DNA of 64,000 bases from Spinacia oleracea (lineage: Eukaryota; Streptophyta; Magnoliopsida; Caryophyllales; Amaranthaceae), in NCBI RefSeq assembly GCF_020520425.1, contig NC_079487.1:105248141-105312140 (forward strand), written 5' to 3'. The notes below the pieces were generated by a model. It had not been told where the DNA came from, made no database searches, and worked only from the letters and a program-made list of their open reading frames with translations. This document shows positions 2,183 through 53,125 of the stretch, piece after piece (position 1 is the first letter of the stretch; the number at the start of each line of letters is the position of its first letter). Both the position numbers and the translations under genes were made by a program.

Positions 2183-2374
2183 TGAAGAGACTGGGCAAAA
2201 TATCAGAGTAAGCAAGAGAGAATTGTATTCCAGAATTTAGTGAATAAAAACATAATTCATTACTTGAGAAACAAGTAGACTAGGGAATATATACAAAGAC
2301 CCTAACCAACTAATAACAGAAATTAGTTATGGAAAAATAGATAAAATAATAATATAAATTATATATTTCCTATA
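2183..2374 (-). repeat. 3' LTR of the first Copia element
   Basis: 192 bp, starting TGAAGAGACT and ending TTTCCTATA on the plus strand. It differs from the partner at 7229-7420 at about six positions. The adjacent CTCCCCCCTC (2375-2384) is the reverse complement of the polypurine tract. The polyprotein stop codon (2370-2372) lies inside this LTR. Confidence 0.93.
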
Positions 2375-16853: not shown

Positions 16854-16873
16854 ATGCTCTTAATAATTCTCAT

Positions 16874-19800
16874 TTGGATAAAATGACAGGTGATTGCTCA
16901 CATTTACCTTGGATTATTGACACGGGTGCATCCCGACATGTCACGGGTGATGCTTCCCGTTTGATAAATATTCAATCTATCATTGCTTCCCCACTTGGTT
17001 TACCTGATGGAAACCACGCTATTGCTACTCAAGAGGGTCGTGCGGTCCTCTCTCGGGATTTAATTCTTGAAAATGTTTTATATGTTCCTACATTACATTG
17101 CAATTTAATATCGGTGTCGCAATTAATTGATGACTCTCATTGTTTTGTTCAATTCACTGACTCTATTTGTGCTATACACGACCAACGTTCTGGGAGCCTG
17201 ATTGGAGCCGGTGAACGGAAAGATGGACTCTACTACTTTCGGGGGATCCCTACAGTGTGTGCGGTGACCATTCCGGAAGTGTCTACGTTTGAGCTCTGGC
17301 ATCATCGTTTGGGGCATCCGTCTGATCGTGTTCTCAAGTTTGTTCCAGCAATTAAGAATTGTTCTAGTAATGTTACTAAGAAATTAAATAAAGCATGTGG
17401 CATTTGTCCGCAAGCTAAACAACATCGTGATAGTTTTCCTGTTAGTGATAGCAAGTCCAGTAGATTGTTTGAATTAATACATTGTGATTTATGGGGGCGC
17501 AACTCTATTTCTTCAACAAGTGGTGCGCATTATTTTTTGACATTGGTAGATGATTTTTCTAGAGCAGTTTGGGTGTATCTATTACATTCAAAAACAGAAG
17601 TTTATAAAGCTTTTCTTTCTTTCTTTGCCATGATTGAACGTCAGTTTGAATCTAATGTCAAATATGTTAGGAGTGATAATGGTACGGAATTTAAATGCAT
17701 GTTGGATTATTTCGATGAAAATGGGATAATATTTCAAACTTCTTGTGTTGGTACTCCTCAACAAAATGGTCGGGTAGAACGGAAACACCAACACATCCTA
17801 AACGTTGGTAGAGCTTTGATGTTTGAGGGTAATCTACCGATCTCTCTTTGGGGTGAATGCATTTTGGGTGCGGTCTATTTAATTAACCGTACTCCTTCTG
17901 GCTTGTTACAAAACAAAACTCCTTTTGAGATTTTGTTTGGGAAAGAACCTGAATTGGATCATCTTCGCATATTTGTTTGTTTGAGTTATGCATATAATCA
18001 GAAATCTAAGGGTCATAAATTTGCTTCTCGAAGTAGAAAATGCGTGTTTGTTGGTTATCCTAATGGCAAAAAGGGGTGGAAAATGTACGATATGGAAACA
18101 AATGAAATTTTTGTCTCTCGGGATGTTATATTTCATGAAAATGAGTTTCCCTTTGCCGTTGAAAATGTTGATGCATTGGGGGAGATCACGGATGCTTGCA
18201 ACGAAAATTTAGGTGTTGACGTTGGTGGGTTGGATGATATGGAAAATATTTTGGCACTTGATGATATGACGCACAATTTGGCTAATGCTGAATTAAATGT
18301 CGAAAATAATGTGGAATTGGCTGAAAATAATATTGTTGAAAATAATCTTGATGTGGAAATTGTTGATCATCATGGGGGTATAGCAGTAGAAGCCACGGCT
18401 GGGGTGTGGGATAGGTCCACAACCCACGGTCTGCATGTGGACCTTGCTGCCCCTACAACACAACATGAATTCCCCACACAAGCCCAAGCCCATGATAACT
18501 CTCCACAAACAAATCAGCCATTTGTGCCTTCCCCTGCAGGCCCACGTGATCCATCCCCTTTTGTCCCTGCTCAGGAGTCCGTGCAAGGGCCTTCACTAGG
18601 ACAGCAGGCCCAACCAACTCCCCATGAGTTGGGCGCTACATCATTATCATCTGATGTTCCATTGGGTTTAGGTAAAGGCCTTCGCCTCAAGCGCCCTTCG
18701 GTTCTTCTCAAGGATTATGTCGCACACACTATTCCCACACCGAGTCCATCAACCCGTTCATCATCCTCCACTAGCTCCTCAGGTACTCCCTATCCTATAG
18801 CACATTTTGTGAATTGTAATAAATTTTCAATACGACACCGCATATTTCTTGCAGCTGTACTTGCAGGACTTGAGCCTCAAACTTTTAATGAGGCAATGAA
18901 GGATGCCGGCTGGAGGGAAGCAATGCAAAAAGAAATTGGAGCACTGGAGGACAATGAAACTTGGGTCATGGAGGAATTACCGCCAGGAAAGAAAGCCCTC
19001 GGATGTAAATGGGTTTATAAAATAAAGTTTCATGCTAATGGTGATATTGAGCGTCTGAAAGCGCGCTTGGTAATCTTTGGGAATCATCAAGTTGAAGGTA
19101 TTGACTACAACGAAACATTTGCTCCAGTGGCAAAAATGGTCACTGTCCGGGCATTTCTTGCGGTAGCTGCGGCAAAGAATTGGGAATTGCATCAAATGGA
19201 TGTCCATAATGCATTTCTGCATGGTGACCTAGATGAAGAATTTTACATGAAATTACCTCCTGGATTCTCTGTGGGCAAACCCGGTATGCTTTGCCGCCTG
19301 AAAAAGTCTCTTTATGGTTTGAAACAAGCACCCCGGTGTTGGTTTGCTAAGTTAGCTGCATCTTTGAAGAATTATGGTTTCCTTCAGTCCTATTCGGACT
19401 ACTCACTCTTCACTTTCACAAAGGGCAAGGTTCAACTTAATGTGCTTGTGTACGTCGATGATTTGATTATCTCTGGTAATGACTCTTCCGCTATTGCTGC
19501 TTTTAAACAATATTTGGGCGAATGTTTTCATATGAAGGATTTGGGTGTGTTGAAATACTTTCTTGGCATTGAGGTGGCTCGTAGTCCTGAGGGTCTTTTC
19601 TTATGCCAAAGGAAATATACTCTGGACATTATTGCAGAAGCAGGGTTATTGGGGTCGAAACCTGCCGGATTCCTCATTGAACAGAATCACAATCTCGCTC
19701 TCGCAAGCGATGCTCTCCTTGACGACCCGGAACCTTATCGACGCCTTGTGGGCCGTCTTATTTATTTGTCCTTCACACGCCCGGATTTGGCTTATACTGT

Positions 19801-20407
19801 TCACATTTTGGCCCAATTCATGCAAGCAACGCGACAAGATCATTGGGATGCAGCCATTCGGGTTGTACGCTACCTGAAAGGGTGCCCGGGACAAGGTATT
19901 CTACTCCGAACTGATTGTGATCTTCTTTTATCTGGTTGGTGTGATTCAGATTGGGCAAGTTGCCCCTTGACTCGACGATCTCTTACTGGGTGGTTGGTAT
20001 TTCTCAGTGGATCACCTGTTTCCTGGAAAATAAAGAAACAACATACAGTTTCTCGCTCGTCTGCGGAGGCCGAGTATCGGGCTATGGCAGCCATTACTTC
20101 GGAATTGAAATGGCTTAAGGCACTGCTTCACAGTCTTGGCGTTGAGCATCCCCGTGCCATGGCTCTGTTTTGTGACAGTAAGTCTGCTCTACACATTGCA
20201 CAAAATCCCGTCTTCCATGAACGCACGAAGCATATTGAGATTGATTGTCACTATGTCCGGGACGCTATCCAAAAGGGCGTCATTGTCACTGATCACGTTT
20301 CCACCGACCAGCAACTTGCTGACATTTTCACAAAGGCTTTGGGCAAGCGCAAATTCTTGTATTTACTTCGCAAGTTGGGCATTTGTGATCTCCATGCTCC
20401 AACTTGA
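16874..20407 (+). CDS. Copia Pol: protease, integrase, reverse transcriptase, RNase H
   Basis: 1177 codons with no stop. The first codon listed is TTG; the true polyprotein would enter from Gag, so no independent start is claimed. Protease WIIDTGASRH lies near residue 15, pre-integrase HHRLGHP near 144, integrase core with HCDLWG near 207, RSDNGTEF near 268 and QQNGRVERKHQ near 301. RT motifs include HQMDVHNAFLHGDLDEEFYM near 780 and the intact catalytic YVDDL near 860. RNase H shows SRSSAEAEYRAMA near 1060 and ADIFTKAL near the C-terminus. All catalytic boxes appear intact, in contrast to the first Copia element. Stop TGA at 20405-20407 abuts the polypurine tract. Confidence 0.93.
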   Translation: MDKMTGDCSHLPWIIDTGASRHVTGDASRLINIQSIIASPLGLPDGNHAIATQEGRAVLSRDLILENVLYVPTLHCNLISVSQLIDDSHCFVQFTDSICAIHDQRSGSLIGAGERKDGLYYFRGIPTVCAVTIPEVSTFELWHHRLGHPSDRVLKFVPAIKNCSSNVTKKLNKACGICPQAKQHRDSFPVSDSKSSRLFELIHCDLWGRNSISSTSGAHYFLTLVDDFSRAVWVYLLHSKTEVYKAFLSFFAMIERQFESNVKYVRSDNGTEFKCMLDYFDENGIIFQTSCVGTPQQNGRVERKHQHILNVGRALMFEGNLPISLWGECILGAVYLINRTPSGLLQNKTPFEILFGKEPELDHLRIFVCLSYAYNQKSKGHKFASRSRKCVFVGYPNGKKGWKMYDMETNEIFVSRDVIFHENEFPFAVENVDALGEITDACNENLGVDVGGLDDMENILALDDMTHNLANAELNVENNVELAENNIVENNLDVEIVDHHGGIAVEATAGVWDRSTTHGLHVDLAAPTTQHEFPTQAQAHDNSPQTNQPFVPSPAGPRDPSPFVPAQESVQGPSLGQQAQPTPHELGATSLSSDVPLGLGKGLRLKRPSVLLKDYVAHTIPTPSPSTRSSSSTSSSGTPYPIAHFVNCNKFSIRHRIFLAAVLAGLEPQTFNEAMKDAGWREAMQKEIGALEDNETWVMEELPPGKKALGCKWVYKIKFHANGDIERLKARLVIFGNHQVEGIDYNETFAPVAKMVTVRAFLAVAAAKNWELHQMDVHNAFLHGDLDEEFYMKLPPGFSVGKPGMLCRLKKSLYGLKQAPRCWFAKLAASLKNYGFLQSYSDYSLFTFTKGKVQLNVLVYVDDLIISGNDSSAIAAFKQYLGECFHMKDLGVLKYFLGIEVARSPEGLFLCQRKYTLDIIAEAGLLGSKPAGFLIEQNHNLALASDALLDDPEPYRRLVGRLIYLSFTRPDLAYTVHILAQFMQATRQDHWDAAIRVVRYLKGCPGQGILLRTDCDLLLSGWCDSDWASCPLTRRSLTGWLVFLSGSPVSWKIKKQHTVSRSSAEAEYRAMAAITSELKWLKALLHSLGVEHPRAMALFCDSKSALHIAQNPVFHERTKHIEIDCHYVRDAIQKGVIVTDHVSTDQQLADIFTKALGKRKFLYLLRKLGICDLHAPT

Positions 20408-27049: not shown

Positions 27050-28396
27050 CTAATAACACAAGTTCCACCAAGGGAAACTTTCATCCTCATCACCATTATT
27101 ATTCCTCCTAAGAGACCAATCTCCTTGCCATTTCCAAACCACGTCCTTCATTGCCGGCCTTACCTCTTCCTCCATCAACTTCAAATACTCAATAAAGTCC
27201 CCTCCCCTCTTCGAAAACTCCACCACCTTAACCACCGGCGACACCACCTCAAACACCTCTACACTCACCACCAACCTCCCTCTCCTACCCACTTCTCCGC
27301 CTTGCAACACCACCCTTGACTCTTTCTCTTTTCTTGCTTCATACTTCAACCCTTCCGCCATCTTCTCCACCTTCTTCATCACTTCCTTAATCGAACACTT
27401 TGTCACGAACAATGTCCCGAGTTTCCTTTTATGACTCTCAAACAAACCGGACAAGTCTAAACCCGAAGCCATAGACAACATAAAATCAAATGCATTGAAA
27501 GGAGATTGATCAGGGGAAGAACAAAACAAACTCGAATATAAATCACCTTCATATATTAATCCCTTCTTAAACCAAGGACTTGTCATTATTTCTGACATTA
27601 TAATCCTTTCACTTGGATTACGTACCAAAATCTTCTTAACCAAATCCTCAACTTCTTTAGGAAATCCCAAGGGAAACTCATACTTACCAACCCTAATCTT
27701 CCTCAACATTTTGGTTCGACTCTCATCTTGGAAAGGTGGATAACCAGCAAGTAAAGTGTACAAAATCACACCACATGACCAAATATCAGCCATTTTACCA
27801 TCATATCTCTCACCTCGAATAATCTCCGGTGCCATATAAGCAAATGCACCACAAGCAGTGTATAAAAGAACATCAACATTATTATTATTATTATTATTAT
27901 TATTCTCTTCTTTCCCAACAAGAAATGTAGCCAACCCAAAATCACAAATCTTGACATTATCACCATTTGAGTCCAACATAATGTTCTCAAGCTTAAGATC
28001 GCGGTGACAAACACCGCGACTATGGCAGAAATCAACAGCTGTAATAACCTGCTGAAAATACTTCCTAGCAAGATTCTCTTCAAACCTACCTTGTTTGACA
28101 ATCTTGGTGTACAAGTCACCCCCACCAACATACTCCATTACTAAATATATCTTTGTCTTTGTAGCCATGACTTCTTTAAGCTCAACGATGTTCGGGTGCT
28201 TAACAAGCCTCATAAGGGATATCTCCTTCTTCACTTGCTCTATCATACCATGTTTCTTCACCTCTTCTTTGTTCATCATCTTTATGGCAACTATTTCTTC
28301 TGTTGTGAGGTTTTTTCCTTTGTATACTTTTCCGAAATTACCCTCGCCTAAAAGATGTCCGATCTCATATTTGCCAAATAGAATTCTACCTTCCAT
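27050..28396 (-). CDS. CBL-interacting protein kinase (SnRK3/CIPK), single exon
   Basis: Ser/Thr kinase of 448 residues that, as a family, is activated by calcineurin-B-like Ca2+ sensors and phosphorylates transporters and channels. The kinase domain (about 10-276) has the Gly-rich loop GEGNFG (17-22), Lys39, Glu58, HRDLK (131-135), DFG (152-154) and APE (189-191), so the catalytic set is complete. The NAF/FISL motif PFNAFDFMLSMASGLDLSG (299-317), which binds CBL proteins and autoinhibits, is followed by a PPI-like region KRKLGTLFVTK and a C-terminal regulatory domain. Intronless, as in one CIPK clade. Odd points: nine consecutive Asn (165-173), encoded by an AAT microsatellite, lie in the activation loop; GAFAYMAPE replaces the usual GTPNYVAPE; the catalytic loop reads CHRDLKLEN instead of CHRDLKPEN. 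Which CIPK number it corresponds to cannot be told. Confidence 0.93.
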   Translation of the reverse strand: MEGRILFGKYEIGHLLGEGNFGKVYKGKNLTTEEIVAIKMMNKEEVKKHGMIEQVKKEISLMRLVKHPNIVELKEVMATKTKIYLVMEYVGGGDLYTKIVKQGRFEENLARKYFQQVITAVDFCHSRGVCHRDLKLENIMLDSNGDNVKICDFGLATFLVGKEENNNNNNNNNVDVLLYTACGAFAYMAPEIIRGERYDGKMADIWSCGVILYTLLAGYPPFQDESRTKMLRKIRVGKYEFPLGFPKEVEDLVKKILVRNPSERIIMSEIMTSPWFKKGLIYEGDLYSSLFCSSPDQSPFNAFDFMLSMASGLDLSGLFESHKRKLGTLFVTKCSIKEVMKKVEKMAEGLKYEARKEKESRVVLQGGEVGRRGRLVVSVEVFEVVSPVVKVVEFSKRGGDFIEYLKLMEEEVRPAMKDVVWKWQGDWSLRRNNNGDEDESFPWWNLCY

Positions 28397-33165: not shown

Positions 33166-33305
33166 TCTTTTCGTCCTTTGTTCCCCCTCCCCTAATTTCC
33201 GATTTATTTAATTTTTTTGATTTTTGTTTAATGATTTATATTTTCTAAGTTTTTTTTAACAATTCTTAAAAAAAATTATATGCTGAAATTGAAATTATAA
33301 AATAA

Positions 33306-33422
<117 letters not shown>

Positions 33423-33494
33423 AAATTTTTTTTGGTTTGTTTTGGTAACAAGCACGAAAATAGATTTCAAATGGATTTTTGTTTAAAATAAAAA

Positions 33495-34465: not shown

Positions 34466-35019
34466 CTCCCTCAGTTCCTAAATACGTATCCAGTTCCTAT
34501 AAATAGCGTTTCCTTGTAAATGTTTAGTTTCCATTTTTGGACATACACCTTTCCCACTTTTCCATACACTTTTCTCACTTTTCCACACACCTTTCCCACT
34601 TTTCTATAAATCATTTTACTTTTTCTTACACATTCTACACTTTTACCACTTTTTAATCACCACATTCACTTTTATATATACTTTATTAATAAACAATTAT
34701 CTACTTTTTCCTTTAAAAAAAAAAAAAACATTCCCAATCATTACCTCTTACACACCATTCAGTTTTATTAATTACCGTGTAAATGTCCAAAGGTCCTACA
34801 TATACCCTATGGGTATGGAATAATGTCATACCCTGGGTTGTGATTGGTTTAGATTTATAAATATCATGTGGGGTTGCTATTTTAGATTTAAATTTAAATC
34901 CCATGTGGGGTTGCTTGTGTGAAAATAACCAATGAGAGCCCAGGGTATGACACTATTCCATACCCATAGGGTATATGTATCAGCTTTCAAAGTGGACACA
35001 TATTTAGGAACGGAGAAAG
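34466..35019. mobile_element. Stowaway-type MITE nested in the CACTA element
   Basis: Left CTCCCTCAGTTCCTAAATAC, right mirror ATATTTAGGAACGGAGAAAG, flanked by TA at 34464-34465 and 35020-35021. It interrupts the CACTA element 17 bp from its left end and itself carries a smaller MITE. Confidence 0.85.
34799..34977. mobile_element. Small MITE nested in the Stowaway
   Basis: CATATACCCTATGGGTATGG at 34799 is mirrored at 34958-34977. The paired arms extend about 40 bp (including GTCATACCCTGGG/CCCAGGGTATGAC) around a short centre with the direct repeat CATGTGGGGTTGCT. TA dinucleotides flank it. Confidence 0.85.
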
Positions 35020-40621: not shown

Positions 40622-41611
40622 TCAACTCAACCCGTCAAACAACCTTGGGCACCACCCCCTCGCAACCGCATCTTCCCTTGTTAAATACATACACATCTTC
40701 CGGCCCCCACCCACCCTTTGGTAAACAAACACCACCTAAAAATATCTATGCTACTTACCTCAAACAAAAGTTGAAAACCCTTTTACCTCGAGTCAGCTTA
40801 ACAGGCGACCTAGAAAGTACTTTAAGGACCACAAAACTTTACAAGCCAAAAGTTATAGGACACCCCTTTTATTTTAGGACCACAAACAAACATGATAAGA
40901 GCTACGACCTTGAGAATTAAATAGAGATAAGTACACTGTTTCTCACTTTTCTCATATTGGATTTGGACCATAATTGTGTTATTTATGGTTCAATTTAACA
41001 ATGTCCTTGATTCAATTGGCTTCTCCTTTATCATTGGCCCCTCAACATCACCGAAAGCCACTCTTTGTAAAGTGCCCTTGTACCTCAAATATGTCCCAAA
41101 CATGCAAACAACCCCTTAATTATTATTTAATTAACTAACCAACACTTTCATCTTTGAACTAATTAACCCTAATAAATCCACTCACTCAAAGATTGGCCCT
41201 CTCTTTCCACCGGACAAGGTCTCGGTTCACACCCCGTCGGTCTATTGCTCTTTGCTCGGAATATTTTGACATACGTCAATATGCGGTGCACTTTGTTTCG
41301 ATTTTATACTAAACCAACATCTATCATCGATAGACGCTTGAGAGCAAGGGGTGAAGGGGTAAGGGGAAAGCCCACTCCCAAGAACATGTTCGTGAATGGT
41401 AAGGCTCGAACATATGACCTCCACGTCACAAGGTGAGTTGCACACCGTCTCTACCAAGCAAACTGGTTTGTAATTACTCTTAGTTGATCACAATACAACG
41501 TTGTTCTTCTCAAAGGGAAAAAAAGAAGTTAAATACAATACATTTGAGAGCTTAGACCACTACTTGTCTAGTAATTAAGGGGTGGTCCCTTAACTGCAAA
41601 GAGTATTAATC
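40622..41611. other. Intergenic, nothing recognised
   Basis: Mixed sequence between the hAT MITE and the Gypsy element, without supported genes. Confidence 0.4.
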
Positions 41612-41616
41612 CTATT

Positions 41617-42041
41617 TGTTCCGGTGTTGTAAAGATGGAAACAATGGGCTTCGAATGAAGGCCCTTTTGTATGTGTTGAAGATCTTGCTTGTTTGAATGA
41701 GTGGAGTCCGAATTCACCTGCACAAGAGCAAAGTCACTGGCCTCGGGGGTGTTTCCGAGGAAAGCCCCTCCGATGCCTAAGTAAGAATGATGCTCGGATT
41801 CTAGAGAGAAGTTCTCTAGAAGAGTAGTCTTAAGGCGATAAATTGGACGTACCTTGAGGTGTGAGCCTTGGCGGCCTATTTATAGTGTTTGCATAATAAA
41901 TGCCCATAGGTCACTTATTGTTATTGGGCCTTGGGCCTTAATGGATGGCTGAATAGCCATTGGTAGGTTTGATGTTGTTGTTTAGAGCCATTGGGCTTTG
42001 GACTTAGTGGCCCAATTGAGAATTAATTGGGAGCCCAAACA
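41617..42041 (-). repeat. 3' LTR of the Gypsy element
   Basis: 425 bp, TGTTCCGGTG to GCCCAAACA on the plus strand. The neighbouring ATGCCCCCCAGA (42044-42055) is the reverse complement of the polypurine tract. Because the antisense gene starts only 440 bp to the right and reads away from it, this LTR also forms part of that gene's upstream region. Confidence 0.95.
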
Positions 42042-42220
42042 ACATGCCCCCCAGACCCGGTCCATTTAGAATTAAATGGGTGGGTTTCCAGCTGTCAGAA
42101 GTCCGAAAGTTCCCTCTCTTTTTTGAAAAGGGATGATTTGCATTGATGACAAGTGTTGGGAATTGTACTGTGTCATGGAGATCGTGGGTTTGAGGAAGTT
42201 GATGCGCCCTTTCTCTTTTC

Positions 42221-42227
42221 TATAAAT
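42221..42227 (+). promoter_or_regulatory. TATA box candidate of the antisense gene
   Basis: TATAAAT in TTTCTATAAATACTGGG, 256 bp upstream of the antisense ATG and outside the LTR. A pyrimidine-rich leader follows and contains a likely 5' UTR intron (42401-42465: AAAAAG before GTAATT, and CCCTAG before the next exon). Confidence 0.6.
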
Positions 42228-42482
42228 ACTGGGTGCCTTGCTCCTTTTAAACTTTTTACTCCTTATTTCAAACCCATTCTCTCTCTAAATTCCGGCGATC
42301 GCAGTGCAATTTGCTTCTTCAGATCTACGAAATTCGGCCAACTTTAGACTTCGGGAACTTGTGTTGTTCGCTTTATCGGCGAATTCCGCTTCGGAAAAAG
42401 GTAATTTGTTTCTGAGTTCTCCTTTTTTCTTCGTTCTTCCTTCTACCCCTCAATCTAAACCCTAGATCGAGATTTCGCGACC

Positions 42483-45400
42483 ATGGCAAAGAATAGGGGC
42501 AAAAACAAGTTCGTTGTTGGCTCCTCTAGTGAGAGAGAGAACGTGCCTTCGGGGAGGTTACCGAAATCTTCGAGGGGTCGACCTTCGGAGAGGCCGTTGG
42601 AGAAGAGTTCGATTGGTTGGGATGCTTCCGAAGATGAACGTGCAACCTCTGGTGAGAGAGCTGGTTTTTCGGGTGTTCGTCGTCGTTACTCCGAGTTTCC
42701 AGTTCATTGGTCGGAAGCTGATCCGAAGGGCAAGTATGCCTCAATTTTGCATGAGACCACGCAGATCGACGGTCCGTTGGAGAAATCGGTCAGCGGTGAC
42801 TGGTTGGTGGAAGCGAAGTTAGGGAATTATCATCGGAAGGCCGAGGAGCTATACGGAATTCAGCATGCCTTGGGGTACTGGTGCGAGCTTCCTGAACAAG
42901 AGCGTCCTCGGGTGACTCATCCACCGAGGGGGTTCATTTCCGTGTATACTCACCATTTGGAGAATGGTCTCCGCTTTCCTTTGGATCCGTTCGTATCCGA
43001 GGTTTTGGTGTCGTACAACATTAGTTTGGCCCAGCTCACACCCAAATCTATGTGGCACATAATCGGATTTAGATGGGTGTGTGACTTCGTCAATTTCCCT
43101 TGCTCTGTCGCTATTTTTCGGGATCTTCACGATCTGGTTCTCAACCATGCTTCCAAGGGTGATGGGTATGGTTGGTGGACCATTGTCAACAAGAAGTCCC
43201 GAAAGAGGGGGGATCCGAACTACATCACGGCGTACCCCTACCTTAGCTCTGACCACAATTGGAAGACGGAGTGGTTGCTCGTCCGTGTGCCGACGGATCC
43301 GAAGCATCCCAACTTTTATCGTCCTCCGAAGTGGTTCGTGGCTCCTGATCCTGATATGAGGGGTGTGGCGGCTCCAGATCGGAACCATCGCCACTATGTG
43401 GACCTCCTCCAGTGGTTCTTGGCTCAAGAGGATAACCACCGACTGCCGTCTAGCTGGCTCCCGAATCTCAATTACATTCTGAGGGAGGACATTCTTGCTG
43501 TTGCCGGTCTCAGCAGGATTTTTGACAGGGGTAGGTGTCTTTCGGCTGAGACCGTTTTTTCAGTGAGTTTGTCCTCTTTCCTGTTTCGTTTTGCTGACAT
43601 GTTTTGTGCTTTGTTTTTGCAGAGTACGGCTTTAGCTGCATTGATCCTAAGAAGTTGGGCATTTCTTTGGATTTGAAGACTATTCACGACCCGGCTCCCG
43701 AGTACAAGTTCGGAAAAGATAACCCTCGTAATCCTCGTCTGAAGGATTACGTGTTGTCTCCTTTGGGGGTTGCTCGGATATCCGAAGTTCGAGCTGATCC
43801 GTGGGATTCCGCCTCTTCTGTTGAAGCTGTTCCTGTGAAGGTTGTGCTTCCTGAGTTGAAGACGACTTCGGATCCGGTGAGTGTTCATTTATAGGCTCGA
43901 TTTTCTGTTTATCTTTTTCTTTTCGGTTGGCCGTCGGCTAACGTCTTGGTCCTGGACCATCTTTTTAGGGTCCTGGGACTGACGCTGTGCCGCGTGCCGT
44001 TCCTTCGGTTTCATCTCCGGCTCGGATAGATATCTCTTTATCTAGGAACCGGGTATTTCCCGCTTTTTTCTCTATTTCTTCCTTTTTCTTCTTTTACATT
44101 CGTTGACCCTTGGTCTCCCCTTTTTAGGATCAACGCAAAAGGAAGGGTAGCACTCTTTTGAGGCCTTCCACGCATCCGAAGAAAGCGAAGGCTTCTCAGC
44201 CCTCGGAGAAGGTATTTGTTCTGACTTGGAGTTTTTGTAGTTCGTTTCTCCCCTTTTCGGAAACTAATCTTTGAATGCTTGCTATGCAGGAAGCAGTTTC
44301 GGAAGTCATGCCTCCTCCTAAGAATCTTCTTCACTTCATGCCCTTGCCCGGGCAGAAGTTAAAGAGTGTGGTGGTTGCTGAACCGCCGGCCGTGGATCAG
44401 CCGCTGATCGAGGAAGATATCATCCCTTCTCCCCTTAAACCATCTGCTGCTTTGGGGATCGAAATCCAGGATATCACCGAGGTGATGGAGGCGATTGAAG
44501 CCGATTTTGTTCCTGGTTCGGATGTCCCTGAGGTAGCTGGGGAGAAGAAGGAGTCTGCTGATCTTCCCTTCGAGAGGGAGAAGAGTCCAGACAAGGAGAT
44601 GATAGATCTCTCGGGCCCCGAAGCTGCGGTCCCCGAGGTTCAGAAGGAGGTTCCCTCTGCTGGAGAGGAGGAGCAGCCCGAGCAAGGTTTGACGAGGAAG
44701 AGGCGCCACTCAACTTTGGGTTCTACTTCTACCTCGGCCCTGGATAGGCTGATCCATGCTGATCCCTGTTCGGATGTTCCGCTAAAACGGATCCCCGAAG
44801 AAGTAAGGGAGGCGATGGCTCGATATGCCAGGGCTCCGATTTTGGGAGAGGACCCTTTGGCTCACGTGGGATCCTTGGTGGGCCCCGAGGCTGCTCGGGA
44901 GAATCTGCTTCGTGCTAACCCGCAGTGGAGGGTTCCTGGGGCCGAAGAGAGGAATCCGGCAATGATGGCCCAGTACTATCTGAACGAGGTAATTTGCTAG
45001 ATTTTTCTCTTTGAGTTGTGTTTTTGTTTTATGTTTTTCCTATTTTGCTCATCTTTCTCTCGTTCCCAGGCTGTTTTCTGGTCTTCGTTCGCTTCCGAGT
45101 GTAGCTCGGTTGAGGAGAAACAACTGAGGAAATATCGTGAGGCTTATGCTCGTGATATTCCCATTTTGGACCAGAAGGCTGGGCAACTCCTCTCCGAGCT
45201 TACGGAACTCAAGCAGCTGTACCTTCACTATAGTCGCGAGGCTAGAGAGTCTGCTGAGAAGATCGGGACCGAGGTTAGCCAGCTCATCTTCCGAGTTGAA
45301 GAGGATGCTGAGAAGATCGCTTCCTTTGCTGAGGAGAAGAAGGATATGGCCGCTAAGTTCGCTAGCGAACTTGAGGAAAAAGATAGACTCTTCCAGGAGA

Positions 45401-45870
45401 TGAAGTCTAAATTTGAAGCGGCCGACAAGGAGCGTAAAGAGGCGGAGTTAAGGCTCCACCATTTTGTCCAGCATCGGGAGCTGATCCAGCAGCAAGCTGA
45501 TAAGGTGCCTGTCCTTCGGCTGAAGCTTCGGGAAAAAGATGACTATATTCGGAAGCTGGAGCAGGAGCGAGTCAACCTCTACACTGCTGATCAGTGTAGA
45601 GAGCAGTACTGGAACGGCATCCTGGGTGCTCGGCGCATGTTTGCGAAGCACATGCCTCACTTCCCTTGGAACGAGAAAGTTCCTCTATGGATGCAGGCCG
45701 AGGACCACTTGGTGGAATGCCAAGCTGATCGAGATGAAGCTGAAGCTGAACGCCAAGCTGCTCTTGCAGAGGCTCGGGCCCAGAAGGCAACTTCCGAAGG
45801 TGATACCACTGCTGGGGGTTCTTCGAAGGATGCTCCCCTAGGGGCCGCTTCTGAGACTCCCAAGAGTTAG
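42483..45870 (+). CDS. Spliced antisense ORF of the Gypsy element (Transposase_28-like protein)
   Basis: Six exons join in frame: 42483-43530, 43623-43876, 43969-44052, 44128-44211, 44290-44988 and 45070-45870. All introns start GT, end AG and are 75-92 bp. The product is 989 residues. The start fits a plant Kozak site (GCGACCATGGC). Residues about 145-225 (RFPLDPFVSEVLVSYNISLA, then QLTPKSMWHIIGFRWVCDF) resemble the 'putative gypsy type transposon' domain Transposase_28, known from plant Tat elements. Exons 3-4 encode basic, nuclear-signal-like patches (QRKRKGS, HPKKAKA). Exon 6 is a long coiled coil (SELEEKDRLFQEMKSKFEAA). It reads opposite to Gag-Pol and converges with it. Function unknown; Tat antisense ORFs are conserved but uncharacterised as far as I know. 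The splice model is my reading and untested. Confidence 0.82.
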
Positions 45871-46101
45871 GGATTCGGGCAGTCGTCTTCTTCAGAGTCG
45901 GTCGGTTCCAGTTGAGGACTTCCGAATATGTGCTTGCTTTTCCCCCTTTTGCCTCGGCGCTGCGTTGTACTCATTTCTTTTTGTTTTCTTTAGTACTTCG
46001 GTAGGCCGGTATTGTCTGTTGATGGCTGCCGATTTTAACTTGTTTCATTTTGTTTTCAATTTTTGAGGTTTTCGATGTGTTTGTACTTCCCCCAAATATT
46101 G

Positions 46102-46107
46102 AATAAA
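46102..46107 (+). terminator. Polyadenylation signal of the antisense gene
   Basis: AATAAA 232 bp after the stop, within TTGAATAAAAAATGAATG and after T-rich sequence. Suitable position for the 3' end of the plus-strand transcript, just before the tandem array. Confidence 0.6.
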
Positions 46108-46164
46108 AAATGAATGTTTGTTACTTGGCTGCTTCTTTTCAACTTGTTCTTTCGCAATTTTTAG

Positions 46165-46495
46165 GTCTTTAAATCCGTAGATTTCTCGAGCTCCTCTTTC
46201 TGTAGACTTGCTAAAAACCTTTTGATCTTGCGAGCTCTTTAAATCCGTAGATCTGCTAAGAGACTCTTTAGTTTTGCGAGTTCTTCAAATCCGTAGATCT
46301 GCTAAGAGACTCTTTGACTTTGTGAGTTCTTCAAATCCGTAGATCTGCTAAGAGACTCTTTAGTTTTGCGAGTTCTTCAAATCCGTAGATCTGCTAAGAG
46401 ACTCTTTAGTTTTGCGAGTTCTTCAAATCCGTAGATCTGCTAAGAGACTCTTTAGTTTCCAGACTCTTCAAATCCGTCGATCTGCTCAGAGGTTT
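46165..46495. repeat. 46-bp tandem array inside the Gypsy element
   Basis: The word AAATCCGTAGATCTGCTAAG recurs with CCGTAG starting at 46245, 46291, 46337, 46383 and 46429, exactly 46 bp apart. A diverged unit precedes (46175) and another follows (46474, CCGTCGATCTGCTC). It lies between the converging 3' ends of the antisense gene and Gag-Pol. Confidence 0.95.
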
Positions 46496-46879
46496 GGATT
46501 GTTCTTCCGATCTCTTGTGGTTCGGAAACCTGGGCAAGAGATCGCTAGTCTGCCTCTTTAGTTATGCCTTTGGCGATCCGTGGATCTGAGCCGGAGTTTT
46601 ATAACTTGATTCGAGCGACTGTTTGTTGCGAACAAATTTTATTAGGGTACCGCGAATCCGAGGATTCTGGACGGTTCCCTGAAGTGTATGATTTGGTCAT
46701 TTCTTGCATTTTATCAAGGAATGGGCAAAGTCAACCTATTTTTGGTCTCGGATTGATCAGATCCGAGGCTGCATATATATATAAAGGGACAATAAATGTA
46801 GAGATAAGTTTAATGAAACACATGGTGCCAATGGCTTTCCTCTTCTCATTAAACAACTTACTTGGTTTACAGACAGAGA

Positions 46880-49800
46880 TCATACAAAATATTTCTTGAG
46901 AACATCGGTATTCCAATGGTTCTTCAGAATTGTTCCATCTAACTGTTTCAGCATATACGTGCCTGGCCTTTTTTCGGAATGGATGATGTATGGTCCTTCC
47001 CAAGTGGCTGAGAGTTTGCCATGGATCCGTCCTTTCTGAACCGAGGCGGCGTTTCTGAGTACTAGATCACCGACTTTTAGGGGTCTGGCGTTGACTCTTC
47101 GGTTGTAATGCTTGTTGACCCTCTGCAAATAGGCTGCGTTGAGTGTCCTTGCATCGTTCCGAGCTTCATCCAGTAGATCGAGAGCTTCGGATAGAAGCTG
47201 GTTGTTGCTTTCTCCTTGGAGCCCATCATACCTGTTGTATGCCTGGATCCTCAGGCTTTCTGTTCCGATTTCCACAGGAATTACAGCTTCGGATCCGTAT
47301 ACAAGGTGGAACGGTGTTTGTCCGGTAGCTTCTTTTTCAGTGGTCCGAAGGGACCATAGCGTTCCGGGTAGCTCTTCTAACCATTTGTTTTTGTCATCCT
47401 CGACTCTTTTCTTGAGTGCGTTGAGGATGAGTTTGTTAGCGGCTTCGGCTTGCCCGTTGCTTTGTGGGTGACAGACTGCCGAGTATGCTAGGTGTATGCC
47501 GAACTGTTTGCACCACTTTTGCAACGGGGTGTTGTCGAACTGTTTCCCGTGGTCGAAGACCATCAGTCTTGGTATGCCGAACCTTGTGATGATGTTCTGC
47601 CATATGAACTTGCGGACCTGAGGTTCGGTGATGGAGGAGACAGCTTCGGCTTCGATCCATTTGCTAAAATAGTCGACTCCTACAATCAACCACTTCTTCT
47701 GGTTCGTCGCTGAGGGGAAGGGACCAATGATGTCTAACCCCCACTGTGCGAATGGTAAGGGATACAGTGTTGATTGTAGGGCTTGAGCTGGTTGATGGAT
47801 GGCTGGTGCGAACTTTTGGCATTTCTCGCATTTCCTTGCCATCTGCTTTGCCTCGGAAACCATAGTGGGCCACCAGTACCCAGCCCGAAGGGCTTTATGT
47901 GCTAATGTCCTACCTCCAATGTGGTTTCCGCATATCCCGAGGTGGATTTCCCTTAGGATGTAGTCAGCGTCTGTTGGACCCACACATTTTAGCAGCGGAG
48001 CAGAGAATGATTTCCTCATGAGCTCTCCTTCGGCGCTGATGATGAACCATCTGTTGAATCTTTTCAGTTTTCTCGCTTGCAGCTTATCTTCAGGAAGTTC
48101 TCCCCTTTCTTTGTATGCAACTACTGCGTCCATCCAGCTCGGTTCGGTGCGTAAGCTGCATACTGTGGTGGGTAGCAAGTCGATGCTTCTCTCCTGGTGA
48201 ACTTCCACGTGGACCGACCTGTTTAGGTCGATGAGTGTCGAGCTTGCGAGTTTTGACAGTGCGTCTGCTTGCGCGTTCTGTCCTCGGGGAATGAGGATGA
48301 CTTCAAAGGATCTTAACTTTGACGTTAAGGATTTAATCTTTGCTAAATAGGCTGTCATGCTGGGCCATTTGGCCTCATACTCTCCTCGGATCTGGTTGGC
48401 TACAAGCTGGGAATCAGTTTTGAGGCGAACATGTTCGGCCTCCAGGGATAAACAAAGCTCTATCCCTGCGATTGCGGCCTCGTATTCGGCCTCGTTGTTG
48501 GTTGCTTTGAAGCCGAACTTCAATGCATACTCTATGCTTTTCCCCGTCGGGGGGATTAGTACAACTCCTGCCCCTGAGCCGTTTACTGTGGAAGATCCGT
48601 CAGTGAAGACCTCCCAAGTGCTTTTCGTATCATCCAACATTTCCTGGTATGAGCACTCGGCCAAGAAGTCTGCCAATGCTTGTGCTTTGATTGCTGTCCT
48701 CGGCTGATATTTGATGCCGAACTCTGATAGTTCGAAGGCCCAGGCAGCCAATCTTCCTGACCTCTCTATTTTGTCGAGTACTTTTTCGAGCGGTTGGTCA
48801 GTTAGCACTGTGATCTGGTGGGAGTCGAAGTATGGCCTCAGTTTTCGTGCAGCTACCACTACTGCATATGCGACTTTCTCGATGAGTGGGTACCGGGTTT
48901 CGGCTCCTGTAAGTGTTCGGCTGGTGAAGTAGATTGGCTGTTGCTTCTTTTCTTCTTCCCGAAGAAGCACTGCGCTGACGGTTCCAGGGCTAACTGCGAC
49001 ATATAGGTACAGGGTTTCCCCCTCCTTTGGTCTGGCCAGTGTCGGCAGTTGAGCTAGGTGGGCTCTGAGTTGCTGAAAAGCTTCTTTTTGCTCCTGTTCC
49101 CATATCAGTTCGGGATCCACTTTCCTCGGGACCCCCTTTTTCTTGACTGGTTCTGCTTCTCCTCCGGGGAGGTTCTTTGGTTTCAGTGCCTTGAAGAAGG
49201 GGGCTCCCTTGTCCGAGGCTTTTGATATGAACCTTGTTAGTGCGGCTAACCTGCCGGTTAGCCTCTGCACATCTCTCTTGGTCTTCGGCTCGGGTAAATC
49301 CAATGCCGCTTGGACTTTGTCTGGGTTCGCATCAATTCCTCTTTCGCTCACCATGAATCCGAGGAATTTCCCTGACTTCACCCCGAAGACGCATTTTTTT
49401 GGGTTCAGCTTCATGCTGTATTTCCTCAGATTTCCGAAGGTCTCTGCCAAGTCTTTGACATGGTCTTCCTCCTTGATGCTTTTTACGATGGAGTCATCCA
49501 CGTAAACCTCCACGTTCCTCCCTTTCTGGTCGGCGAAGACGTGGTCAACTAACCTCTGGTAGGTGGCTCCGGCATTTTTTAAGCCGAAAGGCATCATTTT
49601 GTAGTTGAACACTCCTGCGCTTGTGATGAACGCTGTCTTTGCCCTGTCATCGGGGTGCATGAATACTTGGTGGTAGCCTGAAAAGGCATCCATGAAGCTG
49701 AGCAGTGCATGGCCGCTGGTGGAGTCAACCAGTTGATCTATCCTTGGCAGGGGATAGCAGTCTTTGGGGCAGGCTCGGTTCAGATCTGTGAAATCTACGC

Positions 49801-52630
49801 ACATTCGCCATGAGCCGTTCGCTTTCTTGACCATCACCACGTTGGCCAGCCACTTCGGATACATGCATGGTTCGATGAATCCGGCCTCTTGCAACTTTTT
49901 AACCTCCTCGGCGATGGCTTTGCTTTTCTCCGAGGAGTAATTTCTCTTTTTTTGCTTGATTGGCCGAGCTTCAGCGTTGACATCCAGCTTGTGACAAATC
50001 AGCTTCGGATTTATCCCTGGCATATCTGCTGCTGACCATGCGAAGATGTCTTTGTGATCCCTGAGTAGTCGGATCAAATCGATTCGGAGCCCCGAGCTTA
50101 GGCCCTTGCCTATTCGGACGCTCCTGTCTGAATTATCTTCGAGGAAGATATCCTCCATTTCTTGATCTGGTTCGGGAGATAGGGTTTCGGGGCGAGCATC
50201 AACTTCTGCGGGAGACAAGCTGCTCGTGCTTGCTCTTCTTCTTTTTGCCTCGCTTTCTTCTCCCTTAGCTCCTTTTTCTTCCTCGGGGCCGTCCTCTAGT
50301 TTGGGCTTTCGGACAGCAGTGTGGCAGGTTCTTCTCGCCACTTCTTGATCACCCCTGATTCGTTCGGCGAATCCTGCATCCGAGACGTATATCATCAGCT
50401 GGTGGTATGTGGAGGGGACTGCTTGCATCTTGTGAATCATGGTTCTCCCCATGATTACGTTGTATACGGAGTCGCAGTCCATCACCAAAAATTCGTCCCG
50501 AAGGGTTTTTGCTGCCTGGCCTTCGCCCACTGTGACTGGCAGGGTGATCTTTCCTCGAGGGATAGCTGCGGATCCGTTGAATCCGATCAGAGGATAACTG
50601 ACTTTCGTCAGTGCTTCCTCTGGCTCTTCGAGGATCAGCTGCTCGAAGCAGTTTCTGAAGATGATATTGACGGCACTTCCTCCGTCGACTAATACTCGAT
50701 GTACGTTGTGGTTATTGAGGTCCATGGAGATGACCAGAGGATCATCATGCTTGTACTGGACTCCGAAGCAATCATCAGCAGTGAAGGTCATGTTCGGGGG
50801 GTGTGGCTGGTTGTCTCCCACCGCGCTGAAGTTGACCCGATGGGAGAGGGCTCTTAGGTGTTTTTTGCTGGCCTGGCCGGACTTCTGTCCCCCGAACACC
50901 ACTAGGATGTCATTTTTCTTGTGCCCTGTTGCTTCGTAGACCCTTTTCTGGGGTTGCTCGTGTTGTTTGCCGCTTGCGGCCTTTTCTTTTTCCTCCCTTC
51001 GGTCTAACAAGTACTGTTTCAGGTAGCCTCGGCGAACGAGGTCCTCAATGTTGTCTTTCAGCGAGTTGCATTCTTCGGTATGGTGACCGAAGTCATCATG
51101 GAACTCGCACCATTTGTTCTTGTTTCTCCGAGCTGGGTTGGACTTGAGCTTCCCAGGTAGTTTCCACTTTTCGTCATTTCTGTTGAGGCTGAATATCTCC
51201 TTTCGGGGCAGAGCTAGTGGAGTGTAGTTGGTGTACTTGGGTTGAAGTTCACCCCTTCTCCCGTCTTTCTTCGGGCTCATCTCTCTAGCTCCTACTTTCT
51301 CTTTCCCCTTCCTTGAGCTACCCTCGGGCTTGCTCTGGGTATTCTTTGTGTCTCTCGGATCCGACGATCCTTTCAGTCTTGCAGCGGCCTTGTTGAACTC
51401 CTCGGTTCTGATGAACGCGTCAGCCATTTGGAGCACGTCAGCTATTCTGGAGGGGTTCTTCATTGAGAGTTCGTCACGGAACTTCCCTTCCTGGAGCGCG
51501 TGCTTCAAGGCGAAGATGGCCACGTCTGGCTGCAAGTTTGGTATGTTTGTTGATTCCTTCATGAATCTGGCCATGAATTCTCTCAGACTTTCGTCTCTTT
51601 CTTGTTGGATTGAGGTCAGTTCTGCTGTGGTTCGCTCGGGGCGATTGTTGCTCACGAACTGTGTGCAGAATCTCTTTTTCAGCTTTTTCCAGCTCTTGAT
51701 CGATCCCTTCGGCAGCGATCTAAACCACTCTCCCGCCACTCCGGTTAGCGTGGTTGGGAAGTATTTACACCAGCATGCTTCGGAGTAGGGACTCAAGAAC
51801 ATTTGCTGCTCGTAGGAGATGACATGATCCCTCGGATCTGTGATTCCGCTGTAGGTTAGGTGAGCTGGCAGTCTTACCTTCGGTATTTCTTCCATAATCA
51901 GCTCGTCCGAGAAAGGGGATGACGTAGGAGTCATGATTCTTTTCCCGAGTCTAGCCCTGATGCCTTCGTTTGCCGAGGTTCTATGATTAGAACGTTCGGG
52001 CGTACGATGGGGGCTAGGGGTTCGATCATGCCTCCTGTCTCTTCTTCTTTCTCGGCTACTGACCTCGGGTCGTTCGCCAGATCTGCTCGACTCACCTACC
52101 CCGAGTCTCGTGTGGATCGAAGGTCTTAACCTTGAGTGGACCGAGGGCCTCAACCTGCTGAGCACCGAGCTTCGGATCCGAGTGTTACGAGTAGTTGATT
52201 CGCTTTGGAGAGCTGTTGGAGTAGGCGATGGTCTCGCAAACCAATCTGGTTGCTGTTGTGCCCTTTTTTGGGTGTCCCACGTGCTTTCCGTCCACCTCGA
52301 CGTCAAGTGTGTTCCTGTCAAGGGAAGGAGTTCTCGTTCGGGTCTGGACACTTCCGCACTGGGTGGCTCGTTCAGCCTTCGCCTGGTCCTCCTCTCTTCT
52401 CTGCGGTCGTTTGCCAGTCCTTGCTGCTTCTCATTGAAGAGGAAGTTTTGCATGATGGTCATGGCCGCAGTGAGCTCTTCCCTAGTTGGAATCGGAGGTC
52501 CTGCATTTGTGGCGGTCGTAGCTCTGCTTGGCTGTGACCTCGCCATCGATTGAGGGTGCCCCTCTTGGTCAGATTCTGAATCTGACCGCACCATCATATC
52601 GTCGTCATTGTTAACAACATCATTCACCAT
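46880..52630 (-). CDS. Gypsy Gag-Pol polyprotein, Tat type
   Basis: About 1916 codons without a stop from ATG at 52630 (MVNDVVNNDDDMM). An earlier in-frame ATG at 52807 lies in the LTR and is unlikely to be used. Gag spans about 250-420 (EWFRSLPKGSIKSWKKLKKR). A CEFHDDFGHHTEEC zinc-knuckle-like motif is near 508 and the protease, RVLVDGGSAVNII, near 645. The RT (about 900-1090) holds DFTDLNRACPKDCYPLP and the catalytic YVDD (1042). A first, RT-linked RNase H (about 1200-1320) is followed by a second one (FTDGSS 1341, NNEAEYEAA, KTDSQLV). Integrase shows a zinc finger (H1562, H1569, C1600, C1603) and DDE residues near D1632, D1692 and E1728. Everything needed for retrotransposition appears open. 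A second RNase H is typical of the Tat lineage. Confidence 0.95.
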   Translation of the reverse strand: MVNDVVNNDDDMMVRSDSESDQEGHPQSMARSQPSRATTATNAGPPIPTREELTAAMTIMQNFLFNEKQQGLANDRREERRTRRRLNEPPSAEVSRPERELLPLTGTHLTSRWTESTWDTQKRAQQQPDWFARPSPTPTALQSESTTRNTRIRSSVLSRLRPSVHSRLRPSIHTRLGVGESSRSGERPEVSSRERRRDRRHDRTPSPHRTPERSNHRTSANEGIRARLGKRIMTPTSSPFSDELIMEEIPKVRLPAHLTYSGITDPRDHVISYEQQMFLSPYSEACWCKYFPTTLTGVAGEWFRSLPKGSIKSWKKLKKRFCTQFVSNNRPERTTAELTSIQQERDESLREFMARFMKESTNIPNLQPDVAIFALKHALQEGKFRDELSMKNPSRIADVLQMADAFIRTEEFNKAAARLKGSSDPRDTKNTQSKPEGSSRKGKEKVGAREMSPKKDGRRGELQPKYTNYTPLALPRKEIFSLNRNDEKWKLPGKLKSNPARRNKNKWCEFHDDFGHHTEECNSLKDNIEDLVRRGYLKQYLLDRREEKEKAASGKQHEQPQKRVYEATGHKKNDILVVFGGQKSGQASKKHLRALSHRVNFSAVGDNQPHPPNMTFTADDCFGVQYKHDDPLVISMDLNNHNVHRVLVDGGSAVNIIFRNCFEQLILEEPEEALTKVSYPLIGFNGSAAIPRGKITLPVTVGEGQAAKTLRDEFLVMDCDSVYNVIMGRTMIHKMQAVPSTYHQLMIYVSDAGFAERIRGDQEVARRTCHTAVRKPKLEDGPEEEKGAKGEESEAKRRRASTSSLSPAEVDARPETLSPEPDQEMEDIFLEDNSDRSVRIGKGLSSGLRIDLIRLLRDHKDIFAWSAADMPGINPKLICHKLDVNAEARPIKQKKRNYSSEKSKAIAEEVKKLQEAGFIEPCMYPKWLANVVMVKKANGSWRMCVDFTDLNRACPKDCYPLPRIDQLVDSTSGHALLSFMDAFSGYHQVFMHPDDRAKTAFITSAGVFNYKMMPFGLKNAGATYQRLVDHVFADQKGRNVEVYVDDSIVKSIKEEDHVKDLAETFGNLRKYSMKLNPKKCVFGVKSGKFLGFMVSERGIDANPDKVQAALDLPEPKTKRDVQRLTGRLAALTRFISKASDKGAPFFKALKPKNLPGGEAEPVKKKGVPRKVDPELIWEQEQKEAFQQLRAHLAQLPTLARPKEGETLYLYVAVSPGTVSAVLLREEEKKQQPIYFTSRTLTGAETRYPLIEKVAYAVVVAARKLRPYFDSHQITVLTDQPLEKVLDKIERSGRLAAWAFELSEFGIKYQPRTAIKAQALADFLAECSYQEMLDDTKSTWEVFTDGSSTVNGSGAGVVLIPPTGKSIEYALKFGFKATNNEAEYEAAIAGIELCLSLEAEHVRLKTDSQLVANQIRGEYEAKWPSMTAYLAKIKSLTSKLRSFEVILIPRGQNAQADALSKLASSTLIDLNRSVHVEVHQERSIDLLPTTVCSLRTEPSWMDAVVAYKERGELPEDKLQARKLKRFNRWFIISAEGELMRKSFSAPLLKCVGPTDADYILREIHLGICGNHIGGRTLAHKALRAGYWWPTMVSEAKQMARKCEKCQKFAPAIHQPAQALQSTLYPLPFAQWGLDIIGPFPSATNQKKWLIVGVDYFSKWIEAEAVSSITEPQVRKFIWQNIITRFGIPRLMVFDHGKQFDNTPLQKWCKQFGIHLAYSAVCHPQSNGQAEAANKLILNALKKRVEDDKNKWLEELPGTLWSLRTTEKEATGQTPFHLVYGSEAVIPVEIGTESLRIQAYNRYDGLQGESNNQLLSEALDLLDEARNDARTLNAAYLQRVNKHYNRRVNARPLKVGDLVLRNAASVQKGRIHGKLSATWEGPYIIHSEKRPGTYMLKQLDGTILKNHWNTDVLKKYFV

Positions 52631-52679
52631 TTTCGCGGAAAGAGGTGGTTGATGTCTTCCAAAGGCTTTGAAGTGTTCT

Positions 52680-52697
52680 TCCCCACAGACGGCGCCA
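52680..52697 (-). other. Primer-binding site for tRNA-Lys(UUU)
   Basis: On the minus strand it reads TGGCGCCGTCTGTGGGGA, three bases inside the 5' LTR. It is complementary over 18 nt to the 3' end, with CCA added, of the tRNA-Lys gene at 29600-29671. Confidence 0.92.
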
Positions 52698-52700
52698 AAT

Positions 52701-53125
52701 TGTTCCGGTGTTGTAAAGATGGAAACAATGGGCTTCGAATGAAGGCCCTTTTGTATGTGTTGAAGATCTTGCTTGTTTGAATGAGTGGAGTCCGAATTCA
52801 CCTGCACAAGAGCAAAGTCACTGGCCTCGGGGGTGTTTCCGAGGAAAGCCCCTCCGATGCCTAAGTAAGAATGATGCTCGGATTCTAGAGAGAAGTTCTC
52901 TAGAAGAGTAGTCTTAAGGCGATAAATTGGACGTACCTTGAGGTGTGAGCCTTGGCGGCCTATTTATAGTGTTTGCATAATAAATGCCCATAGGTCACTT
53001 ATTGTTATTGGGCCTTGGGCCTTAATGGATGGCTGAATAGCCATTGGTAGGTTTGATGTTGTTGTTTAGAGCCATTGGGCTTTGGACTTAGTGGCCCAAT
53101 TGAGAATTAATTGGGAGCCCAAACA
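52701..53125 (-). repeat. 5' LTR of the Gypsy element
   Basis: 425 bp, no difference from the left LTR found by eye. It drives Gag-Pol leftward. Confidence 0.95.
52961..52968 (-). promoter_or_regulatory. LTR TATA box
   Basis: TATAAATA on the minus strand (context CACTATAAATAGGCCGCC), placed in the 5' LTR so that RNA would start near 52930. The same box occurs in the other LTR at 41877-41884. Confidence 0.7.

Follow-up and report, generated by a model that had tools for sequence, protein, structure and literature searches.

Antisense open reading frames (ORFs) with a TRP28 (Transposase_28) domain are a recognized hallmark of Retand retrotransposons, and the kind of gene described here is already known: such ORFs are reported in 97% of the clusters surveyed in PMC11963269, in agreement with an earlier annotation made from the DNA letters alone (the sequence-only reading), which had called them familiar in Tat elements. 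What role they play in this abundant plant lineage is a standing question. In maize, Grande gene23 has a promoter of its own from which it is transcribed, and its product is nuclear; the authors of PMC7264820, where this is described, urged that antisense and spliced transcripts be examined. We analyzed a 64,000-nucleotide stretch of the Spinacia oleracea genome (hereafter the window; contig NC_079487.1, positions 105,248,141 to 105,312,140), which holds an element assigned to the Tat/Retand Ty3-gypsy group and, antisense to its gag-pol frame, a TRP28 gene at 42483..45870 that bears on this question. Judged by its natural copies, this is very probably a spliced, protein-coding gene under selection.

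The gene is made up of six plus-strand exons: exon 1 (42483..43530, 1048 bp), exon 2 (43623..43876, 254 bp), exon 3 (43969..44052, 84 bp), exon 4 (44128..44211, 84 bp), exon 5 (44290..44988, 699 bp) and exon 6 (45070..45870, 801 bp, ending in the stop codon). They join into 2970 bp, corresponding to 989 codons and a stop, and contain no internal stop. Direct joining bore out the in-frame, six-exon gene antisense to Gag-Pol that the sequence-only reading had proposed, with its junction phases (phase 1 at the first junction, phase 0 at the other four) and the equal length of exons 3 and 4. All five introns have GT-AG borders, and the start codon stands in the context ACCATGG. Besides exon joining, the map draws on Pfam and copy comparison for exon 1, public gene models and copy comparison for exon 2, public models and C-type copies for exon 3, sequence composition for exon 4, the ratio of nonsynonymous to synonymous substitution rates (dN/dS) for exon 5, and a heptad score and dN/dS for exon 6.

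Copies of the gene were compared at two distances. A DNA search found 40 places at 99-100% identity, the window included (the best 40 of 704 candidates); 20 of the other 39 were sampled, and together with the window they form the 21 A-type sequences. A protein search with the public spinach model P0002 found 44 loci with exon 1 (the best 44 of 4551 candidates), of which 39 are stop-free in that exon; five B-type (L034-L038), four C-type (L039-L042) and four D-type copies (L043-L046) were compared with the window. On the plus strand, a TATA box at 42219..42228 (TATAAATA at 42221), inside the element and adjoining its 3' long terminal repeat (LTR), is identical in 21/21 A-type sequences, and TATAAATA is present in all eight diverged copies covering it. 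A possible 5' untranslated region (UTR) intron (42401..42465) keeps its GT and AG in 21/21 A-type sequences and 8/8 diverged copies, and the start codon is retained in 8/8 diverged copies. Downstream lies a poly(A) signal region (46098..46116), whose AATAAA at 46102 is kept in 20 of the 21 A-type sequences. Two of the gene's own signals claimed earlier, TATA box and poly(A) signal, are thus present; the third, the 5'-UTR intron, stands as a possible one with conserved dinucleotides.

The whole frame is kept in 19 of the 20 near copies, although one of the 19 has gained 27 bases in frame, and GT-AG is found at 100/100 splice pairs. Over 46880-51500, gag-pol is broken in 4/20 near copies, three by a non-triplet indel and one by a stop; this recount replaces an earlier one, several breaks of which were dropped as the aligned stretches had run out. 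Among the near copies, the gene has a ratio of nonsynonymous to synonymous polymorphism (pN/pS) of 0.25 in singletons and 0.37 in shared variants, against 0.31 and 0.09 for the gag-pol part; the shared-variant counts are small (9 in the gene, 16 in gag-pol) and take in L022 with its recombinant 5' part. Read on the complementary strand, the gene gives 1.32 and 1.12. In L022 itself, identity in the 5' part drops to 92% over 42042-42637, and there is a 27-base insertion like that of three D-type copies; it is probably a recombinant between subfamilies.

Diverged copies tell the same at greater depth. Against the window, dN/dS is 0.13-0.14 in 5/5 B-type copies at a synonymous divergence (dS) of 0.053-0.059, 0.11-0.14 in the C-type copies at dS 0.46-0.59, and 0.15-0.25 in the D-type copies at dS 0.04-0.09. 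In the ten copies used for the exon/intron comparison (L035, L038 and L039-L046), dN/dS is 0.11-0.25, the only changes in exon length are 0, 27 and -3 bases whereas introns vary freely by -6 to 15, and GT-AG is kept at 50/50 splice pairs. The dN/dS comparison among family copies that the sequence-only reading had proposed shows purifying selection, and the outcome that it had named as fatal, a frame decaying neutrally in the sister copies, is not seen. The copy comparison rejects neutral decay and, without recourse to gene models, supports the exon map; it also carries what we say of the splice signals and of the module divergence described below. That natural selection has preserved the antisense protein suggests that the element needs it. 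The antisense unit lies over the 3' part of the genomic RNA, and PMC7264820 raises the possibility that the antisense RNA is the working product, which would pair with genomic RNA and limit the element through double-stranded RNA. Such a role is highly improbable, since selection falls on amino acids, third positions change most (95, 49 and 279 differences at codon positions 1, 2 and 3 between the window and L039), and a frame across five junctions would not persist under an RNA-only role.

The encoded protein has a clear domain order. Its TRP28 domain (PF04195) lies within exon 1 at residues 154-216 and scores 41.6 bits against a curated cut-off of 26.2, so that the Pfam search suggested by the sequence-only reading was positive. 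The two features it had described further along are also found: a basic, nuclear localization signal (NLS)-like middle, with RKRK at residue 465 and KKAK, both within exon 4, and a C-terminal coiled-coil-like heptad pattern in exon 6, in windows starting at residues 755-835 by a crude home-made score. Region by region, dN/dS of the window against L039 and L040, respectively, is 0.23 and 0.31 at the N-terminus, 0.05 and 0.05 in the TRP28 region (109-240), 0.09 and 0.09 at 241-349, 0.15 and 0.17 in exon 2, 0.12 and 0.18 in the acidic stretch of exon 5 (491-640), 0.03 and 0.01 at residues 641-723, 0.14 and 0.16 in the coil (724-900) and 0.07 and 0.06 in the conserved tail (901-989), exons 3 and 4 holding too few changes for a value. 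Residues 641-723, the lowest of the protein, thus form a second strongly conserved segment besides TRP28; they match no Pfam family up to E 1. An Rfam scan of 41500-46800 up to E 1 gave no match, and the P0002 sequence found only two weak matches in the PDB (E 0.18 and 0.86). At window position 43053, the window copy alone encodes Trp at residue 191, within the TRP28 domain, where the 20 near copies have Arg.

The matching public spinach protein models share the junctions of the gene. P0001 (937 residues, from a cluster of 47 member sequences) runs through all five junctions and then departs at its end; exon 3 is used in P0001 and P0004 and skipped in P0002 (962 residues, 'isoform X2', 45 members) and P0003. 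The models vary, P0003 and P0007 being without parts of exon 1. NCBI isoforms of this kind are usually backed by RNA reads.

Exon 3, frame-neutral and alternative, is almost unchanged in the C-type copies: 0, 0, 1 and 1 of its 84 bases differ from the window in the four copies, against about 8-18% in the flanking introns and about 11-17% in exons 1, 2, 5 and 6. Pooled, this amounts to 2/336 differences versus 1536/11196 in exons 1, 2, 5 and 6, and 22/336 in exon 4. In L039 and L040, 131 aligned bases (window 43925-44055, from 44 before to 3 after the exon) are free of substitutions, with a one-base gap on each side of the alignment. Since this almost unchanged exon is also the one skipped in two public models, a fair reading of the sequences is that it is constrained for regulated splicing; a short conversion tract is the rival account of its sameness. 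Strict constraint in all comparisons was not upheld: the four D-type copies differ at 5/336 positions (1.5%) versus 2.6% in exons 1, 2, 5 and 6, and 6 of the 28 exon 3 residues differ in P0004. An exact 84-base match was found at 40/40 places, the best 40 of 520 candidates, all on contig C1, a clustering that reflects the restriction to these 40. Predicted RNA folding of the exon is slight (z -1.17 on the plus and -2.15 on the minus strand; -2.13 and -2.97 with flanks) and was not used.

Comparison of gene and pol within the same elements shows that the gene diverges as a module. Between the L039 element and the window, dS is 0.587 in the gene and 0.099 in pol, with a pol dN/dS of 0.07 (L047, 1176 codons, ending at 50415 and with one stop codon set aside). 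Two earlier gag-pol comparisons were discarded: an alignment with dN/dS 0.63, into which non-homologous sequence had been forced, and one of 1203 codons (dS 0.114, dN/dS 0.15), which took in about 85 non-homologous bases beyond 50415. The L040 element gives 0.491 in the gene and 0.126 in pol (488 codons), and the L042 element 0.457 in the gene and 0.319 (394 codons) and 0.162 (81 codons) in pol, so that L042 is older in part. The D-type L044 element has the reverse order, 0.079 in the gene and 0.133 in pol (487 codons), and a faster synonymous rate in the gene is rejected as the cause of the gap between A- and C-type. Since the gene is not simply faster, the L039 and L040 elements combine a young body with a gene of an old type, a state that recombination between elements would leave. 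Across the elements compared (L039, L040, L042 and L044, with L041 left out and L050 dropped for want of any match to the element), pol dN/dS is 0.05-0.08. When L039, L040 and L042 are aligned to the window, identity steps from 77-89% in 45292-45791 to 95-97% from 45792 on, which places one module border near the stop codon.

Taken together, the locus probably holds a convergent, spliced antisense gene coding for a nuclear protein that oligomerizes, binds DNA or chromatin and regulates the element. As a second transcription unit converging on gag-pol, it would be transcribed from a promoter just inside the 3' LTR into an mRNA that has an intron in its 5' UTR and six exons in its coding part; the product would have 989 residues, or 28 fewer with exon 3 skipped. 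Built of TRP28, basic NLS-like clusters, an acidic linker, the second conserved segment and a coiled coil, the protein probably enters the nucleus, oligomerizes, binds DNA or chromatin of the element family and sets its transcription or silencing in trans between copies. Transcription and in vivo splicing are what we infer, as are nuclear location, DNA binding and regulation; the functional reading is built on the order of the domains, on selection and on what is published about relatives, and for the regulatory role taken by itself the chances fall somewhat short of even. Introns fit the antisense position. A sense-strand intron is spliced out of genomic RNA and lost from new copies, as reporter cassettes exploit, and plant LTR elements are generally intron-free, Ogre and EVADE excepted (PMC12786077). 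Introns of opposite sense are not spliced from genomic RNA; read backwards there, they would escape recognition and so outlast reverse transcription. The coiled-coil-like exon 6, and a strength of selection comparable to that on pol (dN/dS 0.11-0.25 in the gene), could befit a structural accessory protein that aids particles or the pre-integration complex and regulates nothing. This is unlikely, however, as the NLS-like clusters and TRP28, predicted to bind DNA in PMC11963269, point to the nucleus and one would hardly expect a particle protein to have a separate promoter.

Several observations weigh against the regulator, or against the gene beneath it. The frame is broken by a 2-base insertion in L028, and L037, L041, L042 and L044 have one stop each. 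Near copies were chosen by similarity, which favors intact frames, and their intactness alone proves little. Intron divergence in the C-type copies (0.16-0.22) lies well below dS (0.46-0.59), without explanation. The structure model of exon 1 has a mean predicted local distance difference test score (pLDDT) of 47, blocks within residues 111-220 reaching 60-81, and found no match in the PDB better than E 2.4; since the model is poor and without such a match, DNA binding rests on others' prediction. Intron-free processed copies were considered as proof of splicing and given up: a 104-base query across the exon 5-6 junction gave 80 matches at 40 places (the best 40 of 466 candidates), all half matches, and a 27-base pattern of that junction gave 0 matches with up to 3 mismatches, a weak negative that has no result for an unspliced control pattern and concerns one of five junctions. 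The broken copies could also be taken to mean that the frames are open by chance, or that a captured gene has no function and is decaying. We give this next to no chance, for the copy comparison already contradicts it: dN/dS is far below 1 at all distances examined, splice signals are kept, exon indels are in frame in the ten diverged copies, and the longest plus-strand stop-free run in 42042-46170, 405 codons, exceeds the maximum of 345 reached in 2000 first-order Markov simulations on both strands.

The element (41617..53125, minus strand) is complete and young. Its 3' LTR (41617..42041) and 5' LTR (52701..53125), both on the minus strand and 425 bp each, show 0/425 differences, a CTATT duplication stands on either side, and a primer-binding-like site (TGGCGCCGT..., minus strand) adjoins the 5' LTR. 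The gag-pol frame (46880..52807, minus strand; 1975 codons in a mechanical ORF list) has a listed start within the LTR, so that its true start is further in. It encodes the Pfam domains Retrotrans_gag, RVT_1, RT_RNaseH (1265-1363), a second RNase H (RVT_3, 1403-1520) ahead of the integrase, Integrase_H2C2 (1616-1668) and rve. LTRs, duplication and domain order together confirm the recent, Tat-type Gypsy setting given in the sequence-only reading. The second RNase H sits between RNase H and integrase as in Ogre and Retand (PMC6317226), and the antisense TRP28 ORF lies between pol and the 3' LTR, the mark used in PMC11963269. Both support assignment to Tat/Retand, and the choice of Retand over Ogre rests on TRP28 and on the match in dimensions to a published Retand cluster. 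Outside the element, the window holds inverted repeats at 33292-33438 and 34789-34987 (arms of 61-70 nucleotides, 87-93% complementary) and further long open frames at 16065-20407 (plus strand), 27050-28396 and 2370-7045 (both minus strand).

Between the two converging genes lies a 46-bp tandem array of 5.8 units (46228..46491, no strand assigned), found by repeat analysis, whose unit also occurs in the C-type element at L047. It invites comparison with the VANC proteins of VANDAL transposons, in that the antisense protein might bind motifs in non-coding parts of the element, such as this array, and lift silencing of the family. VANC genes contain introns, and the targets of VANC are often tandemly repeated (PMC5735166); about half of the young Retand clusters have tandem arrays (PMC11963269). 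The unit is identical at 46/46 positions between window and L047, a 10-base core of it recurs inverted in the 5' UTR of the antisense gene, and a 9-base part of the core is kept in 7/8 diverged copies. Yet the array is not specially conserved, because the adjoining pol is 94-99% identical as well, and the recurrence of its ten-mers is weak (3 places outside the array against about 1 expected by chance, from rough arithmetic without a shuffled control). Anti-silencing of this kind is unlikely. A broader version would have the antisense genes of Retand, with their introns and alternative splicing, act in trans in anti-silencing or self-regulation and pass between elements as old divergent modules, with cassette exon 3 switching two protein forms and the antisense orientation letting introns and splicing control persist. 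We regard it as quite unlikely, and marked it down slightly because strict constraint on exon 3 does not hold in all comparisons.

Relatives of the protein were found within and beyond spinach. An alignment search gave 213 proteins, mostly of Ensete and Musa among the 120 listed, a bias of a query that held an Ensete protein, and PF04195 is matched by 74/74 proteins of the chosen alignment at E up to 1. In P0015 from Rubroshorea, TRP28, a basic stretch and a coiled-coil-like end follow in the order of the window protein, as judged by eye. A second, distant TRP28 family of spinach (L001 2730-3194, L003 1102-2217; 25-28% identity in exon 1) has its exon 1 end at the corresponding position, where L003 shows a possible phase-1 donor, again by eye; in L001 a coiled-coil-like frame lies downstream of the TRP28 frame. 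P0012, a spinach protein named SWEET13-like, has a sugar-transporter part fused to antisense exon 4-5 sequence, from an insertion or a wrong gene model.

A spliced antisense gene in Retand elements was not found in our searches of the open-access literature, a scope outside which lie the original accounts of Grande gene23 (2013), of the extra gypsy ORFs (Steinbauerova 2011) and of Retand (Kejnovsky 2006); nor were the joined multi-exon gene, its selection, the module divergence or the almost unchanged 84-bp alternative exon found in the literature searched. The main text of PMC11963269 does not contain 'intron', 'purifying' or 'selection', and has 'splic' and 'exon' in its references only; that survey lists ORFs from ORF Finder unjoined, whereas the exons are joined here into one gene. 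If such ORFs are exons of one selected gene, surveys listing separate TRP28 and 'Smc' coiled-coil ORFs may have split one protein, and the correct complete protein could then be produced and assayed. Module divergence and the alternative exon give two direct handles on its function.

Among described systems, the nearest is the 'Spinacia oleracea 1' cluster of 54 copies (Vicient 2025, PMC11963269), from the same species, with an LTR of 425 bp, one tandem array and an antisense TRP28 ORF between pol and the 3' LTR, as in the window element; its internal region of 10,719 bp and pol-3' LTR distance of 4,850 bp compare with 10,659 and 4,838 bp here, a match by dimensions alone. The other likenesses are drawn from published descriptions. 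HBZ of HTLV-1, an antisense gene with a nuclear product, is set beside the plant ORFs in PMC11963269 without a claim of homology. The VANC genes are likewise intron-bearing accessory genes of plant transposons associated with tandem repeats (PMC5735166), but VANDAL is a DNA transposon, unlike the retrotransposon of the window. Retand of Silene latifolia has antisense ORF3 and ORF4, with TRP28 in ORF4 and weak, ubiquitous expression, and Grande gene23 lies antisense between pol and the 3' LTR with its own promoter, like the spinach gene (both PMC7264820).

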